A stretch of 64,000 nucleotides of DNA from Candidatus Nitrosotenuis chungbukensis (GTDB taxonomy: Archaea; Thermoproteota; Nitrososphaeria; Nitrososphaerales; Nitrosopumilaceae): positions 1 to 64,000 of the forward strand of contig NZ_AVSQ01000003.1 in NCBI RefSeq assembly GCF_000685395.1. The letters run 5' to 3'. This document shows, one piece after another, positions 46,547 to 53,714 of this stretch. The position numbers and the translations under genes were made by a program. Below the pieces are notes generated by a model. That model had not been told where the DNA came from. It ran no database searches and worked only from the letters and a program-made list of their open reading frames with translations. Position 1 is the first letter of the stretch. Every line of letters begins with the position of its first letter.

Positions 46547-47593
46547 TTGTCAGAAAACAAGCCATTAGTCAGCATAATAATTCTAAATTACAATGCAGGT
46601 GATTTATTGTTGGATTGCGTACAATCCGTGTTTAAAACAGACTATACGAACATAGAGTTGATTGTTGTAGATAATGCTTCAACAGACAGCAGTCACTTAA
46701 GATGTAAAGAGAGATTTCCCAACATAGTTTTGATAGAAAACAAAGGTAATCTTGGATACTGTGAGGGAAATAATGTAGGAATCAGACAAGCAGCCGGCGA
46801 TTTCATAGCAATTCTTAATCCAGATACAATAGTTTCTCCAAAATGGTTGCAAGAATTAATTTCTGCATACCGGGAAGTTGGAGAGGGACTTTATCAGCCA
46901 AAGATACTTTCACTTTATGAAAAAAATGTAATACAGAGTACCGGAAACATGATTCATTTGTTTGGCTTTGGTTTTGCGCGAGACAAAGGTGTTTTAGATA
47001 GCAACCAACATAGTGAAATAGAACAAATAGGCTATGCATCCGGTACCTGCCTGTTTACATCAGCAAATGTACTCAAAAGAATTGGTCTTTTAGATTCATT
47101 TTTGTTTTTGTATCACGATGATCTTGATTTGGGTTGGAGGGCTGCACAAATGGGCATAAAATCATACTATGTACCATCTGCGATGATTTATCATGTAGAA
47201 AGCTATAGTCTAAAATGGAGCTCAAAAAAATTCTTTTGGCTTGAAAGGAACAGACGATATTGTTTGTTAACCCATTATTCTATGCATACTTATAAAAAAA
47301 TGAAAATATCTTTGATGTTAGTTGAAATGATGGTTTGGTTATTCTATCTGTCAAAGGGGTTTCTCGGGGCAAAGATAAGAGCAGAGATGGATATTAAGAG
47401 AAATCGGAAGTACATTGAGAATCGATACAAGGAATTAGAAGAAAAAAAGACAGTACCAGATAAAGAACTGATAAAACTTTTTCCTGACGAGATTTTTGTT
47501 CCAAAAAATGTTTCAGGCCAAATAGGCAGCAATACCTTCAACTCGATTATATCTAGGCTTAGCAAGAGAGCCAAGCGTTCAATTTTATCCTAA
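46547..47593 (+). CDS. Family 2 glycosyltransferase (rhamnosyltransferase-like)
   Basis: A 348-residue GT-A enzyme. VSIIILNYNAGDLLLDCVQS starts the nucleotide-binding domain. VDNASTDSS and AILNPDTIVSPKWL (DxD-type metal site) follow, and YHDDLDLGWRAAQMGIKSYY is the acceptor-side motif typical of WbbL-like dTDP-deoxyhexosyl transferases. It is coupled to rmlA, so it likely uses the dTDP-sugar made by this operon. The start is TTG 46547, one base after the rmlA stop. The hydrophobic segment near residue 255-275 may associate with membrane. Confidence 0.88.
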   Translation: MSENKPLVSIIILNYNAGDLLLDCVQSVFKTDYTNIELIVVDNASTDSSHLRCKERFPNIVLIENKGNLGYCEGNNVGIRQAAGDFIAILNPDTIVSPKWLQELISAYREVGEGLYQPKILSLYEKNVIQSTGNMIHLFGFGFARDKGVLDSNQHSEIEQIGYASGTCLFTSANVLKRIGLLDSFLFLYHDDLDLGWRAAQMGIKSYYVPSAMIYHVESYSLKWSSKKFFWLERNRRYCLLTHYSMHTYKKMKISLMLVEMMVWLFYLSKGFLGAKIRAEMDIKRNRKYIENRYKELEEKKTVPDKELIKLFPDEIFVPKNVSGQIGSNTFNSIISRLSKRAKRSILS

Positions 47594-47949
47594 CTAGATA
47601 ATTTTTCAGAAACTACCATTGCTATTGCAAGTTTTTGTTCGTGAGATATCGATATTAGAAAGGAGTATTTTGTTTTATTATTTCCTCTTAGATTTACAAC
47701 CGGTTTAGATTTGGAATAAGATGTTTCAATATCCAGCATAGATATTCGGTCATCGATTGCTTTTTTTACTGCCTCTTTAATTGCAAATTTTCCAGCAAAG
47801 TGTTCATATGGGTTTTTGTACTTTAAGCAATATTGTATTTCAGATGGGAGAAATAACTTCTTATAAAAATTCGGTTTGGTCAAATACGGTATTTTTTTAA
47901 ACTGATCCACATCCGCGATGTCGATTCCGATACCAATTTTTTCTAACAT
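47590..47949 (-). CDS. acpS: Holo-ACP synthase (4'-phosphopantetheinyl transferase, AcpS type)
   Basis: 119 residues, normal AcpS length. IGIGIDIADVDQF carries the metal-binding Asp, and FAGKFAIKEAVKKAI carries the Glu (residue 59) and adjacent Lys that bind CoA and magnesium. It transfers phosphopantetheine from CoA to the serine of an acyl carrier protein. An ACP gene lies 0.4 kb upstream in the same minus-strand operon, giving an obvious client. AcpS and ACP are unusual in archaea, which do not generally use type II fatty acid synthesis. Acquisition from bacteria is likely. Confidence 0.88.
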   Translation of the reverse strand: MLEKIGIGIDIADVDQFKKIPYLTKPNFYKKLFLPSEIQYCLKYKNPYEHFAGKFAIKEAVKKAIDDRISMLDIETSYSKSKPVVNLRGNNKTKYSFLISISHEQKLAIAMVVSEKLSS

Positions 47950-47958
47950 AATAAAACA

Positions 47959-48396
47959 CTATTCCGAGTCTTCTCGTACTATAACCTTGGCAAGTCCATC
48001 AACGAGACACTTTCCAAGCTGATTATATGCAGAGGTTTTGATCGTTATTATTTTTGTCGAGACACTCTTGTCAGTTACCTGTCCTTCAATTGTTACGATA
48101 TCTCCCATAAAACAAGGCAATTGAAAGTTCAATGTTTGTGAAAAATACAATGCATTTTGACCAGGAAGATGCATTCCAACGAGTCTTGAGAAAAAAGATG
48201 CAAGCAGCATTCCATGACACACTCTTTTTCCAAACGAGGTTTTTGCTGCATATACTTGATCCATATGCAGTGGATTATAGTCGCCAGATATTTTAGCAAA
48301 CCCATCCAGCATTGATTCGTCCATAGTAACGGTAAACTTTACTTTTTGACCAACTTCGATATCATCAAGTTTGTACGATGTAGGCTGCTCAGTCAT
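47959..48396 (-). CDS. MaoC-like (R)-specific enoyl hydratase/dehydratase
   Basis: 145 residues with the hydratase-2 motif SGDYNPLHMDQVYAAKTSFG, where D39 and H44 are the catalytic pair, followed by RVCHGMLLASFFSRL. The single hot-dog domain acts on acyl thioesters bound to CoA or ACP. It overlaps the ACP gene by eight bases and precedes acpS, so the natural substrate is an acyl-ACP made in this cassette. It may dehydrate or hydrate a 3-hydroxyacyl unit before transfer to a glycan. The exact step is unknown. Confidence 0.85.
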   Translation of the reverse strand: MTEQPTSYKLDDIEVGQKVKFTVTMDESMLDGFAKISGDYNPLHMDQVYAAKTSFGKRVCHGMLLASFFSRLVGMHLPGQNALYFSQTLNFQLPCFMGDIVTIEGQVTDKSVSTKIITIKTSAYNQLGKCLVDGLAKVIVREDSE

Positions 48397-48628
48397 TTAA
48401 AATTGCCCCGTGATTTTTGAGATGTCTTTTGATATCGGCTATTTTTTTTACGTCCATTGCTTCATTAATTGTAAACTTTACCTTGAATTCAGTCTCAAGC
48501 TCATAAAGCAGAACATAGCCCTTAAAAGATGTCCAATTCTCAATGGATTCAGGTCCTGATTCGTCATTAATAGTAGAAGATTGTACATTCATCACCTTTG
48601 CTACAAGATCATATAGTTTCTTTGACAT
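48389..48628 (-). CDS. Acyl carrier protein
   Basis: 79 residues, three helices, acidic. The phosphopantetheine attachment site aligns at S34 in the segment ESIENWTSFKGYVLLYELE, which parallels the GWDSLGHMNL motif of carrier proteins that partner FkbH. It overlaps the MaoC gene downstream, and its start abuts the FkbH gene end (48628). It would be loaded by the FkbH-like enzyme and activated by AcpS. The Thr-Ser in place of Asp-Ser is a small departure from the standard DSL motif. Confidence 0.85.
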   Translation of the reverse strand: MSKKLYDLVAKVMNVQSSTINDESGPESIENWTSFKGYVLLYELETEFKVKFTINEAMDVKKIADIKRHLKNHGAILND

Positions 48629-50382
48629 TATTCAACACTAACCATGAGAAAGTCCGGAATTGTAAATTGTGTTTTTGACTGATAAATCCAATAATCTCCA
48701 TCTTTTTGAAAGCCACAATTTGGTAAAAACTCCTCAATTGGTTTATTTTTTTGCGATGGAATAAATTGCGCTTTTATTCGCTCAATTTCATTTTCTTTTG
48801 CTTTATTTATGATGTATCCGAGGATTCCTTTTTCCACTTCTCTTCCCATGACTCTGCAGCTTAAAAGAAATGTGTCGATAAACCATTCTTTGGGATTTTC
48901 CTTGCGCACAATAAAGACTCCAGTAATACCATTGTCACCAAATTTATCTGTCACTTGTGCACACCCAACAACATACCTGTCATCTTCAGAGAGTTTTTTG
49001 ATGTCGGATTCCTGATATCGTTTTGTTGTAAGGTTGAACTGATTTGTCTTTAATGTGAGTTGAGATATTCTTGGAATTGTAAACTCGTTGGCGTTTTTTA
49101 TCAGTACTTTAAGATCTAAATTTTTCAGGAAACTTTCCAGATCTGGGGCAGACTGCTCAAGATCACTTCTTTTGCGCTGTTCAAGATACATTTTTCCTCG
49201 TTGTGCATCTTCATCCGTTATACTTAGAACACTAAACTCGTTCATTTTTTTAATGGTTTGTGCATATTGTGATGGGTCTTGCGGTAGATCAACGGTCAGA
49301 ATTTGCGGCATGTTTATCCTCATATATTCCCGGTTTACTGGATCATCATCAAAAAACACCATGCTATCTGCTCCTATATTCAGCTCATTTGCAATTTCTT
49401 TCATGTTTGATACCTTGTCATTCCAGTTTATTCTAATTGATGCAAAATGTTCTTCTCTAAGAACCATGTACGGATGCTCTTTTATGACCTTCAGCGCCTC
49501 ATCATAGTTGTTTTTGCTGTTTATTGCAAGAATTATTCCACGTTGATAAAGTGAAAGCAAGACTCGTTGGAATTCCAAATACGAGTTTCCGGGTGGCTCT
49601 GGTCCCAATCTAATTCCATTGAATCCATCTTCGCCTACTATTCCTCCCCACAGTGTATTATCCAAGTCCAATATGATGCATTTTTTTGAAAGGCCTAAGT
49701 GACCGACTACATATCCTATCAAATCATTTGCTAAATACGGGATGTAGTCAAGTGAGATTTTCATGTCGCCAAAGAGAAACTGCTTGTAATCAAAAATATT
49801 GTCTTCACCATACTGTGAAACAAACCCATTGAAATCGTAAATGTAAATAGAGTCAGAGTTTGCAAAAGAGTCAATCAACCTACTATTAAGATCTTCAATC
49901 ATTTTATGTAAGCCATATTCAGTTTTTGTTTCAAATATTCCATGTGGTGAATATGTTGGAAGAGGAAAATTCGCTATAACCAATTTTGATTTTGTTTTAC
50001 TGGTAAAAGCGTTAGCCAGATTTTGTATTTCTTTTACCTTTTTTTCGACAAAACTTCGTCTTTCTGATGCAGATATGGAATATGGGAAATGAAAAAGATT
50101 TCCTAAAATGTTTCTTGTATCTACGATCAAAAATGTGAGGTCGGGAGAAAATTTGTACACATTGCTTTCATGATTTAGAATTTCCTGGTTGTATTGATTA
50201 TATCCACCCACGTATGTAATACAGTCAATATTTTTTTCTGCAGATTTTACTCGCATGGCTTCTTCAAGACCATTGATAGTAAAGCTGCAAAGAATCCCTA
50301 TTCGTATTTTTTTCCCAAAAGTTCTTCCTGTAAGCTCGCTGGCTTTGTTGATATAATACGATAATTTTTGTTCAATGGTCAT
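48628..50382 (-). CDS. FkbH-like HAD-IIIC enzyme (glyceryl-ACP-forming type)
   Basis: 584 residues. The N-terminal about 220 residues are an SGNH-like or FkbH-specific domain (ANFPLPTYSPHG). The HAD catalytic motif DLDNT is at 239-243, followed by LWGGIVGEDGFNGI and the motif III/IV region FFDDDPVNREYM. The C-terminus is GNAT-like (FGDNGITGVFIV, LLSCRVMGREVEKGILGYI). Characterised homologues take 1,3-bisphosphoglycerate and load a glyceryl unit onto an ACP. The adjacent ACP makes that reaction plausible here. The final product is not known. Confidence 0.87.
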   Translation of the reverse strand: MTIEQKLSYYINKASELTGRTFGKKIRIGILCSFTINGLEEAMRVKSAEKNIDCITYVGGYNQYNQEILNHESNVYKFSPDLTFLIVDTRNILGNLFHFPYSISASERRSFVEKKVKEIQNLANAFTSKTKSKLVIANFPLPTYSPHGIFETKTEYGLHKMIEDLNSRLIDSFANSDSIYIYDFNGFVSQYGEDNIFDYKQFLFGDMKISLDYIPYLANDLIGYVVGHLGLSKKCIILDLDNTLWGGIVGEDGFNGIRLGPEPPGNSYLEFQRVLLSLYQRGIILAINSKNNYDEALKVIKEHPYMVLREEHFASIRINWNDKVSNMKEIANELNIGADSMVFFDDDPVNREYMRINMPQILTVDLPQDPSQYAQTIKKMNEFSVLSITDEDAQRGKMYLEQRKRSDLEQSAPDLESFLKNLDLKVLIKNANEFTIPRISQLTLKTNQFNLTTKRYQESDIKKLSEDDRYVVGCAQVTDKFGDNGITGVFIVRKENPKEWFIDTFLLSCRVMGREVEKGILGYIINKAKENEIERIKAQFIPSQKNKPIEEFLPNCGFQKDGDYWIYQSKTQFTIPDFLMVSVE

Positions 50383-50482
50383 AATTCGCTGTATTGTGTT
50401 TTCTCAATAAGCATTTGTATTAATTATTTATTACGACTCAGGGCGATTCCTCAGAAAGGTTTTAGACAAAGAGTTCCACTTT

Positions 50483-51028
50483 ATGCAATATATACTCATG
50501 AAAGATGAATTGGATGCTTTTTCTACAAATGAAGCAGAAATTTTGGAATATTATGGCCTGCAAGGAAGCTTTGGGAAGATAAGGCTACGACTCAAGTTTC
50601 TACGAATGTGGATATTACATTCTCTTGCATATTTATCACCAGATTCCGGCTTTGCGATTAAAATGCAACGATCCAGAGGAGTCAAAATAGGAAAAAATTG
50701 CCATTTATCACCATATGTTCTAATAGATTTACTGTATCCACAACTAGTAAAAATTGAGAACAATGTCACAATTGGTAGCAACACGTTGATTTTTGCACAT
50801 TCCAATCCAACTGCAAATCTTTTTTTAAAAAAACAATATCCAAGAAAAATTGATCCTGTAAATATCAAATCGGGTGCAGTGTTATTCCCAGGATGCATAA
50901 TAACTGCCGGTGTCACAATTGGCGAAAATTCGATGATAGGTGCAGGCAGTGTAGTTTCTGAAGATGTTCCAGATTATTGCGTTGCTGTAGGAAATCCGGC
51001 ACGGGTAGTAAAAAAGATTGATCATTAG
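50483..51028 (+). CDS. Hexapeptide-repeat acyltransferase near the ACP cassette
   Basis: 181 residues. A helical N-terminal region (about 1-65) is followed by left-handed beta-helix repeats: VKIGKNCHLSPYVLID, VKIENNVTIGSNTLIFAHS, and GAVLFPGCIITAGVTIGENS, ending VAVGNPARVV. It is divergent from the FkbH gene and 100 bp away. It could be the enzyme that moves the ACP-bound acyl unit onto a sugar, although most of the family use acetyl-CoA. ATG 50483 is used. The in-frame ATG 50498 is an alternative. Confidence 0.8.
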   Translation: MQYILMKDELDAFSTNEAEILEYYGLQGSFGKIRLRLKFLRMWILHSLAYLSPDSGFAIKMQRSRGVKIGKNCHLSPYVLIDLLYPQLVKIENNVTIGSNTLIFAHSNPTANLFLKKQYPRKIDPVNIKSGAVLFPGCIITAGVTIGENSMIGAGSVVSEDVPDYCVAVGNPARVVKKIDH

Positions 51029-51070: not shown

Positions 51071-51904
51071 TTGAATTTGTTAGGTATTGATTTTGAGGAT
51101 TGGTTTCATCCAGAACTAATTCAGCGTCATATAACAGACAAAAACAACAAACCAACTGTAGTACAAGGCATAGACAAAATACTTGATTGGTTAAGAAAAA
51201 ATGATACCTTTGCTACTTTTTTCACGGTTGGAGAGTTACTAGAATCAAAACCTGAATTGTTAGACAAAATACTGGGAAATGGACATGAGATTGCATTTCA
51301 TACAATGCATCATACGAGGCTAGATGCACCAAATTTTAGAGAAAAATTTGATGAAGAGATCAAGAGGTTTGCGGATTTAACCAAAGGAAAGTCGCGCGGA
51401 TTTAGAGCCCCAACCTTTTCAATGAGCCATTACACATCGTGGGCAATCGATATACTGGCTAAAAATAATTACCAATACGATAGCAGTATTGTTCCAGCAA
51501 AAACCAAGTTATACGGAATTGCTAATGCCGAAACAAAACCATACAAAATTTCAAGTGGGAAATTGGAAGGGGGCGATCCTGGCGGAAAAATATTAGAATT
51601 TCCTCTGCTCACTACAACAATATTTGGGAAAAGAATTCCGGCAGGAGGTGGGTTTTATCTAAGGTGTCTCCCATTAAGAATTATCAAAAAGGCAATTAGG
51701 AACTGTAACAAAGAGAATGCTCCTGCCACATTTTACATTCATTCGTGGGAGCTAACTCCCGAATTTATGCCCAAGATTCAACTACCTTTTGTGGATAGAT
51801 TCATCACATATCATAATCTGGATAAGGCTTTTTTAAAAATGGACAAATTGATCAACGAGTTCAAATTTACATCATTTGAACGATTTATGGAACAAACATC
51901 GTAG
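51071..51904 (+). CDS. Polysaccharide deacetylase (NodB/CE4), second type
   Basis: 277 residues. Motif 1 is LLGIDFEDWFHPELI and motif 2 is HEIAFHTMHHTRL (metal histidines). SRGFRAPTFSMS is motif 3, and FYIHSWELTPEF is the C-terminal motif typical of the subgroup seen in exopolysaccharide loci. It lacks a signal peptide, so cytoplasmic action on a lipid-linked glycan is likely. The start is TTG 51071. It is distinct from the CE4 enzyme at 29328 in motif spacing and so probably has a different substrate. Confidence 0.85.
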   Translation: MNLLGIDFEDWFHPELIQRHITDKNNKPTVVQGIDKILDWLRKNDTFATFFTVGELLESKPELLDKILGNGHEIAFHTMHHTRLDAPNFREKFDEEIKRFADLTKGKSRGFRAPTFSMSHYTSWAIDILAKNNYQYDSSIVPAKTKLYGIANAETKPYKISSGKLEGGDPGGKILEFPLLTTTIFGKRIPAGGGFYLRCLPLRIIKKAIRNCNKENAPATFYIHSWELTPEFMPKIQLPFVDRFITYHNLDKAFLKMDKLINEFKFTSFERFMEQTS

Positions 51905-52937: not shown

Positions 52938-53714
52938 TTGAGTGCAAGTTTACTTGAAAAGGCAAGAATTTTGATCAAGGCCATCAAGACAATTAAAAAT
53001 TGGCATCTTTATGTTGCATTATACCTTAACCTAGTCAAAAATGAGCATATTATTCTGGAAACAAGAAATGGTGTCAAGATAAAGCTCAGAGTAAATTCGA
53101 CTGATCTCATGGCATTTACGCATGTGTGGCTGCTACATGAATATGGTAAGCCAGGTTTTGAAATAAGAGATGCCGACATTGTAATCGATGTTGGTGCACA
53201 CATTGGCTTGTTTGCCTTGTTTTCATCTCAATTTTGCAAAAATGGAAAGATCTACTGTTTTGAACCAGTAAAAGAAAACTTTGATTTGTTAGAGATGAAT
53301 TTGGAGATCAACAACATTAGAAACGTTGTTGCCACCAATGCAGCTGTTTCAACAAATACTGGTATTGTCACCATTTACTTGAATGAAGATGAATCGGGAC
53401 ATAGTATGCATGTTACAGGATCAAAACAGATACAGGCAAAATCACTTTCTTTGCAAGATGTTTTTGTTTCAAACAAATTAGAAAGATGCGACTTCCTAAA
53501 AATCGATTGCGAGGGAGAAGAATACAAAATAATTGATTCACTATCAACACAGTATTTTGATAAAATAAACAAGATGTGTATTGAGTATCATTTTGCAGAT
53601 ACCAGACCACAACTGCTACAAGACATGATTAAAAAACTAAGATTGTCATCATACATAGTAGATATAAGAAATATTTTACCCAGTATTGGCTTTTTGTACG
53701 CAAAGAAAAGATAA
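52938..53714 (+). CDS. FkbM-family methyltransferase
   Basis: 258 residues. A helical N-terminal section is followed by the SAM-binding motif VIDVGAHIGLFALFSSQF, then YCFEPVKENFDLLEMN and FLKIDCEGEEYKIIDSL, the FkbM hallmarks. FkbM-type enzymes O-methylate sugars or polyketides. In this locus a terminal sugar O-methylation is likely. The start is TTG 52938, divergent from the SDR gene with about 85 bp between the two starts. It ends one base before the convergent methyltransferase at 53716. Confidence 0.86.
   Translation: MSASLLEKARILIKAIKTIKNWHLYVALYLNLVKNEHIILETRNGVKIKLRVNSTDLMAFTHVWLLHEYGKPGFEIRDADIVIDVGAHIGLFALFSSQFCKNGKIYCFEPVKENFDLLEMNLEINNIRNVVATNAAVSTNTGIVTIYLNEDESGHSMHVTGSKQIQAKSLSLQDVFVSNKLERCDFLKIDCEGEEYKIIDSLSTQYFDKINKMCIEYHFADTRPQLLQDMIKKLRLSSYIVDIRNILPSIGFLYAKKR

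Follow-up and report, generated by a model that had tools for sequence, protein, structure and literature searches.

Known FkbH and carrier-protein systems

FkbH enzymes load a glyceryl unit from 1,3-bisphosphoglycerate onto an acyl carrier protein (ACP) (PMC7489565, PMC8949500), and in some assembly lines FkbH domains replace adenylation domains (PMC8949500). In the polyketide/tetronate and methoxymalonyl pathways an FkbH-like loader and a stand-alone ACP are encoded in one operon (PMC7489565), and the same pairing is present in the archaeon Candidatus Nitrosotenuis chungbukensis (family Nitrosopumilaceae), within a 64,000-nucleotide stretch (contig NZ_AVSQ01000003.1, positions 1 to 64,000) referred to here as the window. 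There, an FkbH-type loader, an ACP, a MaoC-type hydratase and an AcpS-type phosphopantetheinyl transferase form a compact cassette beside a hexapeptide acyltransferase and a polysaccharide deacetylase, and together they probably constitute a carrier-protein route acylating a surface-glycan sugar. The cassette differs from the tetronate and methoxymalonyl pathways in that it lacks both the FabH, E2 and dehydratase tetronate genes and an FkbG/FkbI/FkbK-type set, has an acyltransferase and a deacetylase instead, and lies in a glycan locus of an archaeon. Moreover, the FabH-like, acyltransferase and dehydratase partner set of a tetronate glycerate-utilisation operon was not found among the window neighbours. 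An FkbM-family methyltransferase (52938-53714) was dismissed as a possible methoxymalonyl partner, as it is not always beside the cassette; FkbM is, in addition, a different enzyme from FkbG.

Parallels are also found in bacterial surface polysaccharide systems. GmACP3, as cited in PMC4847154, is a specialised ACP to which a role in lipopolysaccharide biosynthesis is tentatively assigned (Ramelot 2011, doi 10.1021/bi101932s); on that account it resembles the archaeal ACP in its proposed role in surface polysaccharide, and differs in being bacterial. A bacterial locus from the phylum of the Marinimicrobia locus described below (L110) has an FkbH-ACP-VOC-hexapeptide arrangement like that of the archaeal cassette, and FkbH-ACP-MBOAT-VOC loci (L096, L097; Rhodobacteraceae SC52, S. 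meliloti pSymB) likewise combine FkbH, ACP and VOC with an acyltransferase, among glycan genes or close to them. However, loci of these types have an MBOAT transferase or added dehydrogenase-complex genes, a local AcpS was not seen in them, and the FkbH proteins of these VOC loci are distant from the archaeal clade on the tree. In Maritalea and Niveispirillum (L093, L107) MaoC adjoins FkbH in a glycan or sulfotransferase context, but it is fused to a reductase (MaoC::SDR), and AcpS and a deacetylase were not seen beside it. The FkbH_N and HAD architecture of the archaeal loader is shared by BF1531 (3SLR) of Bacteroides fragilis, a bacterial protein of which only the N-terminal part has been solved.

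Since bacterial glycan loci carry related FkbH-ACP-VOC/MaoC sets, the archaeal cassette is not a new category, and the acyl-carrier glycan decoration put forward in the initial annotation would be novel for archaea and has parallels in bacteria. Archaea are usually assumed to lack acyl chemistry that depends on ACP. The literature search found no paper joining FkbH with Thaumarchaeota, nor FkbH with O-antigen, in agreement with the supposition of the initial annotation that the route had not been described in archaea. As far as is searchable, the assembly of the cassette is new to archaea, while its parts are known from bacteria.

The cassette in the window

The four genes initially annotated as a coupled minus-strand group are present as open reading frames for FkbH (48628..50382), ACP (48389..48628), MaoC (47959..48396) and AcpS (47590..47949). 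The FkbH stop overlaps the ACP start by 1 nt, ACP and MaoC overlap by 8 nt, and 9 nt separate MaoC from AcpS. The loader is an FkbH family member by the curated cut-off (TIGR01686, 321.6 bits against 147), by its architecture and by its HAD aspartates. It consists of an SGNH-like FkbH_N domain (PF21211, E=7.6e-19), a HAD phosphatase domain (D239xD241) and a GNAT-like C-terminal domain, and D239, D241 and C509 are invariant in its orthologues. In an AlphaFold2 (AF2) model (pLDDT 87) the N-terminal and HAD parts match 3SLR (TMt 0.89) and the C-terminus matches GNAT folds.

The ACP has no Pfam match (PF00550, which was also not found elsewhere in the genome), and its NCBIfam ACP match is sub-threshold (E=0.003). 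It is identified as an ACP because its family profile matches solved ACPs in the PDB (best 2LML, E=2.6e-10, with many others also matching), because W32 and S34 of its W-x-S motif are invariant in 31 orthologues, and because of its position. The proposed attachment serine, S34, is thus well conserved, although the curated families give no above-cut-off match for the protein itself. The best-matching entry, 2LML, is presumably that of GmACP3 from Geobacter metallireducens. The MaoC protein is a MaoC-type (R)-hydratase/dehydratase by domain (PF01575, E=3.5e-21, 75.5 bits) and catalytic Asp/His, the D39/H44 motif being invariant in 18/18 orthologues. The accompanying enzyme is, as first proposed, an AcpS-type phosphopantetheinyl transferase, by domain cut-off (PF01648, 42.5 bits, cut-off 25) and by its conserved D10 and K58-E59 motif; TIGR00556 is also above its cut-off and TIGR00516 is slightly under (55.3 against 59.8).

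The host genome is 1.76 Mb in size with a completeness of 98%, and searches of it found a single FkbH, a single ACP and a single AcpS. Ketosynthase-like genes were also sought there, with only a 21-bit match. With no second ACP or AcpS, and only this ketosynthase-like match, the system is self-contained, and the suggestion of an ACP with its own AcpS inside a glycan locus holds both here and in glycan loci across ammonia-oxidising archaea. Such a pairing is nevertheless not unique in the phylum, as other lineages have ACP and AcpS with pta-ackA or AMP-ligase genes. At five loci from other lineages (L087, L088, L089, L090, L091) AcpS, usually with an ACP, adjoins a shared nucleotidyltransferase-like protein, and several of these loci also have phosphotransacetylase- and acetate-kinase-like genes, representing a different archaeal carrier-protein system. 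A second ACP in genome G245 (L086:8510-12232) is accompanied by a DltD-like protein, a FabG-like SDR and an MBOAT protein, with an AglB-like gene approximately 3 kb away; this locus may encode a Dlt-like system for outer O-acylation in archaea.

Distribution and extent of the unit

The phylum scan covered 398 genomes, and FkbH matches below approximately 45 bits were taken as other HAD proteins, except for fragments in G239 and G382. Strong FkbH and strong ACP matches occur in the identical 17 genomes, and AcpS is present in 17/17 (FkbH being broken or cut in G239 and G382). In addition, 33 archaeal loci whose sequence extends far enough downstream of FkbH were surveyed, with counts made by hand from the locus table. 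At every one of the 33 an ACP either adjoins FkbH or lies no more than 1.3 kb from it, AcpS lies within ~2 kb in 32/32 loci where this region is visible, and the hexapeptide acyltransferase is found at 32 of 33. The order FkbH-ACP-x-AcpS is repeated in ~30 archaeal loci, with FkbH identity down to 45%. This recurrent order, together with the coincidence of FkbH and ACP in the same genomes, is not attributable to chance. However, the cassette genes are adjacent and co-inherited, so the 17 genomes are not independent events; stronger arguments than the counts are a swap of the loader, described below, and locus L067, where the cassette genes have a different order and different strands and are still together.

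The survey also shows that the four genes first recognised are part of a larger unit. The acyltransferase (50483..51028, plus strand, PF00132) and the adjoining deacetylase (51071..51904, plus strand) belong to it, so that the full unit is a loader, a carrier, a phosphopantetheinyl transferase, an acyltransferase, a deacetylase and one variable tailoring gene. The acyltransferase diverges from FkbH across a 100-bp intergenic region (50383..50482), and a spacing of ~100 bp is kept in most loci.

On the FkbH tree the archaeal sequences form one clade, which encloses two contigs labelled Woesearchaeota (L049, QMQS01000065.1) and Marinimicrobia (L050, DKER01000028.1); an archaeal-clade FkbH is also found on a contig labelled Nitrospina (L041, PBKP01000031.1). 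Either mis-binning or recent transfer would account for these contigs. Stops or frameshifts interrupt the FkbH genes of G239 and Nitrosarchaeum sp. BD3 (L070:8834-10740, L071:1-2000), these copies being either pseudogenes or assembly errors. Four viral contigs (L127-L130) encode distant FkbH relatives with 34-40% identity.

Acyltransferase, acceptor and glycan setting

The hexapeptide acyltransferase has a left-handed beta-helix fold, LacA/MAT/AntD-like, with a conserved histidine (H106) that is invariant in 24 orthologues. Orthologues above 200 bits are present in 17/398 genomes, every one with an ACP, and the following match falls to 139 bits. These genomes are 15 of the 17 with FkbH and ACP, plus G096 and G156; the two FkbH genomes without an orthologue are G382, whose contig begins inside FkbH, and G239, with its broken FkbH. 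In G096 and G156 the loader is swapped: FkbH is absent, and an AMP-binding ligase occurs with AcpS, a diverged ACP and an acyltransferase of 64% identity. The arrangement AcpS / ACP - AMP-ligase - hexapeptide acyltransferase (L084, 9876-12511; L085, 9841-12464) is found in these two single-contig genomes, both from the window genome's family, and adjoins the same family 2 glycosyltransferase as the window cassette. Confined to ACP genomes, loader swap included, the acyltransferase thus accompanies the ACP constantly, regardless of which loader is present. It is likely to be the transferase of the ACP-borne acyl group, with acyl-ACP as its proposed donor. The initial annotation had named hexapeptide, FemAB-like and GNAT enzymes as candidates; of these, the first is the one tied to the ACP by linkage.

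The deacetylase is of the XrtA-type family (PF01522, with DUF3473, PF11959), although its TIGR03006 score of 204.7 bits is under the equivalog cut-off of 276. A deacetylase, of the window type or another, adjoins the cassette in 30/32 loci and is drawn from two different clusters, suggesting a freed amine as the acceptor. This recurrence also counts against the best-surviving alternative, in which the same loader and carrier would esterify a sugar hydroxyl or a lipid, with the deacetylase as a separate glycan enzyme. An ester product would fit the proximity of the acyltransferase to galactoside and maltose O-acetyltransferases, the O-acylation arrangement around the second ACP of G245, and the bacterial FkbH-ACP-MBOAT-VOC loci. 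We nevertheless consider it unlikely, as AntD, which N-acylates an amino sugar, is another structural match of the acyltransferase.

Sugar-nucleotide and glycosyltransferase genes surround the cassette in most loci. The family 2 glycosyltransferase of the window (46547..47593, plus strand, PF00535), which is convergent to AcpS and belongs to the context rather than the core, is present in 22 loci. The host genome has one STT3/AglB gene, on the same contig and ~70 kb from the cassette; the cassettes of L059 and L060 have an STT3/AglB gene beside them.

The variable tailoring slot

Over the 33 loci the tailoring slot holds MaoC at 20 and is empty at 3, and a VOC gene is found at 10 (in the slot at 7, ~1.6 kb off at 3); MaoC and VOC never occur together. 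Mapping MaoC and VOC onto the FkbH tree requires at least three changes between them. MaoC is thus one of several interchangeable tailoring genes and not a fixed part: its initial listing as a cassette member is right for the window, and elsewhere it is replaced by VOC or absent. The VOC protein is nearest to methylmalonyl-CoA epimerase and falls under the curated cut-off for that enzyme (TIGR03081, 71.6 bits against 114.95), so it is described here as epimerase-like only; its invariant residues H5, E53, H76 and E127 are possible metal ligands. The VOC step might have had a precedent in the L-glyceryl group of gellan, but this idea was dropped, as the literature search found no link to FkbH.

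MaoC enzymes hydrate or dehydrate acyl thioesters at the alpha-beta bond. A FabG-like reductase accompanies MaoC in three of its 20 loci (L067, L068, L070), and the MaoC::SDR fusions that adjoin bacterial FkbH fit dehydration and reduction working jointly. The bryostatin pathway reportedly combines FkbH with dehydratase and ketoreductase domains to give a D-lactyl starter, an unconfirmed parallel that we regard as a lead only. Alternatively, the group hydrated by MaoC might be some other acyl unit on ACP or CoA, such as crotonyl, which would give 3-hydroxybutyryl, with FkbH acting on a different substrate. The intact catalytic motif of MaoC would suit this, as would the failure to find an orthologue of the dedicated reductase in the window genome, and 3-hydroxybutyryl is a common N-acyl group of bacterial sugars. 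Even so, this explanation is quite improbable, because the slot elsewhere holds a VOC protein resembling an alpha-carbon epimerase, or nothing, and MaoC is fused or linked to reductases beside bacterial FkbH.

Proposed route

From the gene set, catalytic residues, linkage, co-occurrence and the swaps of loader and slot, we infer the chemical steps, acceptor and final glycan of the acylation route as follows. AcpS would attach phosphopantetheine at S34 of the ACP, and FkbH would use 1,3-bisphosphoglycerate as the source of a three-carbon acyl unit, strip its phosphate and load glyceryl on the ACP. The tailoring enzyme would then alter the ACP-bound unit, which would stay unaltered where the slot is empty. 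In the window genome MaoC would probably remove the 3-hydroxyl from glyceryl-ACP, giving a hydroxyacryloyl/pyruvoyl-type unit, which might be converted to lactoyl where the FabG-like reductase is also present; in other lineages the epimerase-like VOC protein may convert D- to L-glyceryl. The deacetylase would free an acceptor group on the sugar, probably an amine, to which the hexapeptide enzyme would move the ACP-borne acyl group, and the acylated glycan could then pass to surface proteins via AglB.

Several observations weigh against this reading. For the dedicated reductase, the window genome has no orthologue (best 22% identity). Among the solved structures closest to the acyltransferase most are CoA-dependent O-acetyltransferases, and the ACP dependence proposed for this enzyme therefore rests on linkage. 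Moreover, the literature on N-glycans of ammonia-oxidising archaea is without a glyceroyl or lactoyl group, in strains not known to carry the cassette (PMC12153357), and no N-glycosylation was detected in Np. piranensis (PMC12153357). It is, by comparison, very improbable that the cassette provides a small secondary metabolite of the tetronate or methoxymalonyl type with its extender or starter unit, since, although polyketide pathways are the best-known setting of FkbH-ACP pairs and bacterial pairs beside FabH, E2-like and polyketide synthase genes exist (L094 and L095 have FkbH and ACP with FabH and polyketide synthase genes), the cassette is without polyketide synthase or FabH/E2 tetronate genes, the ketosynthase-like match in the genome is very weak, and most loci have the glycan surroundings described above.

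Implications for archaeal surfaces

In its widest form, the proposal is that ammonia-oxidising archaea swap the N-acetyl groups of S-layer glycans for acyl groups built on an ACP, using interchangeable loaders (FkbH or AMP-ligase) and tailors (MaoC, MaoC with reductase, VOC epimerase, or none), with a lineage-specific surface chemistry as the outcome. We put this forward tentatively, as a possibility somewhat short of even. If the route is correct, ACP would gain a role, in glycan decoration, in some of the most abundant archaea of ocean and soil, and unusual acyl groups would be predicted on the S-layer, a structure that binds ammonium and possibly gives protection from viruses (PMC11153153). 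The exchange of loaders and tailors would then represent a natural experiment on the diversification of surface sugars.

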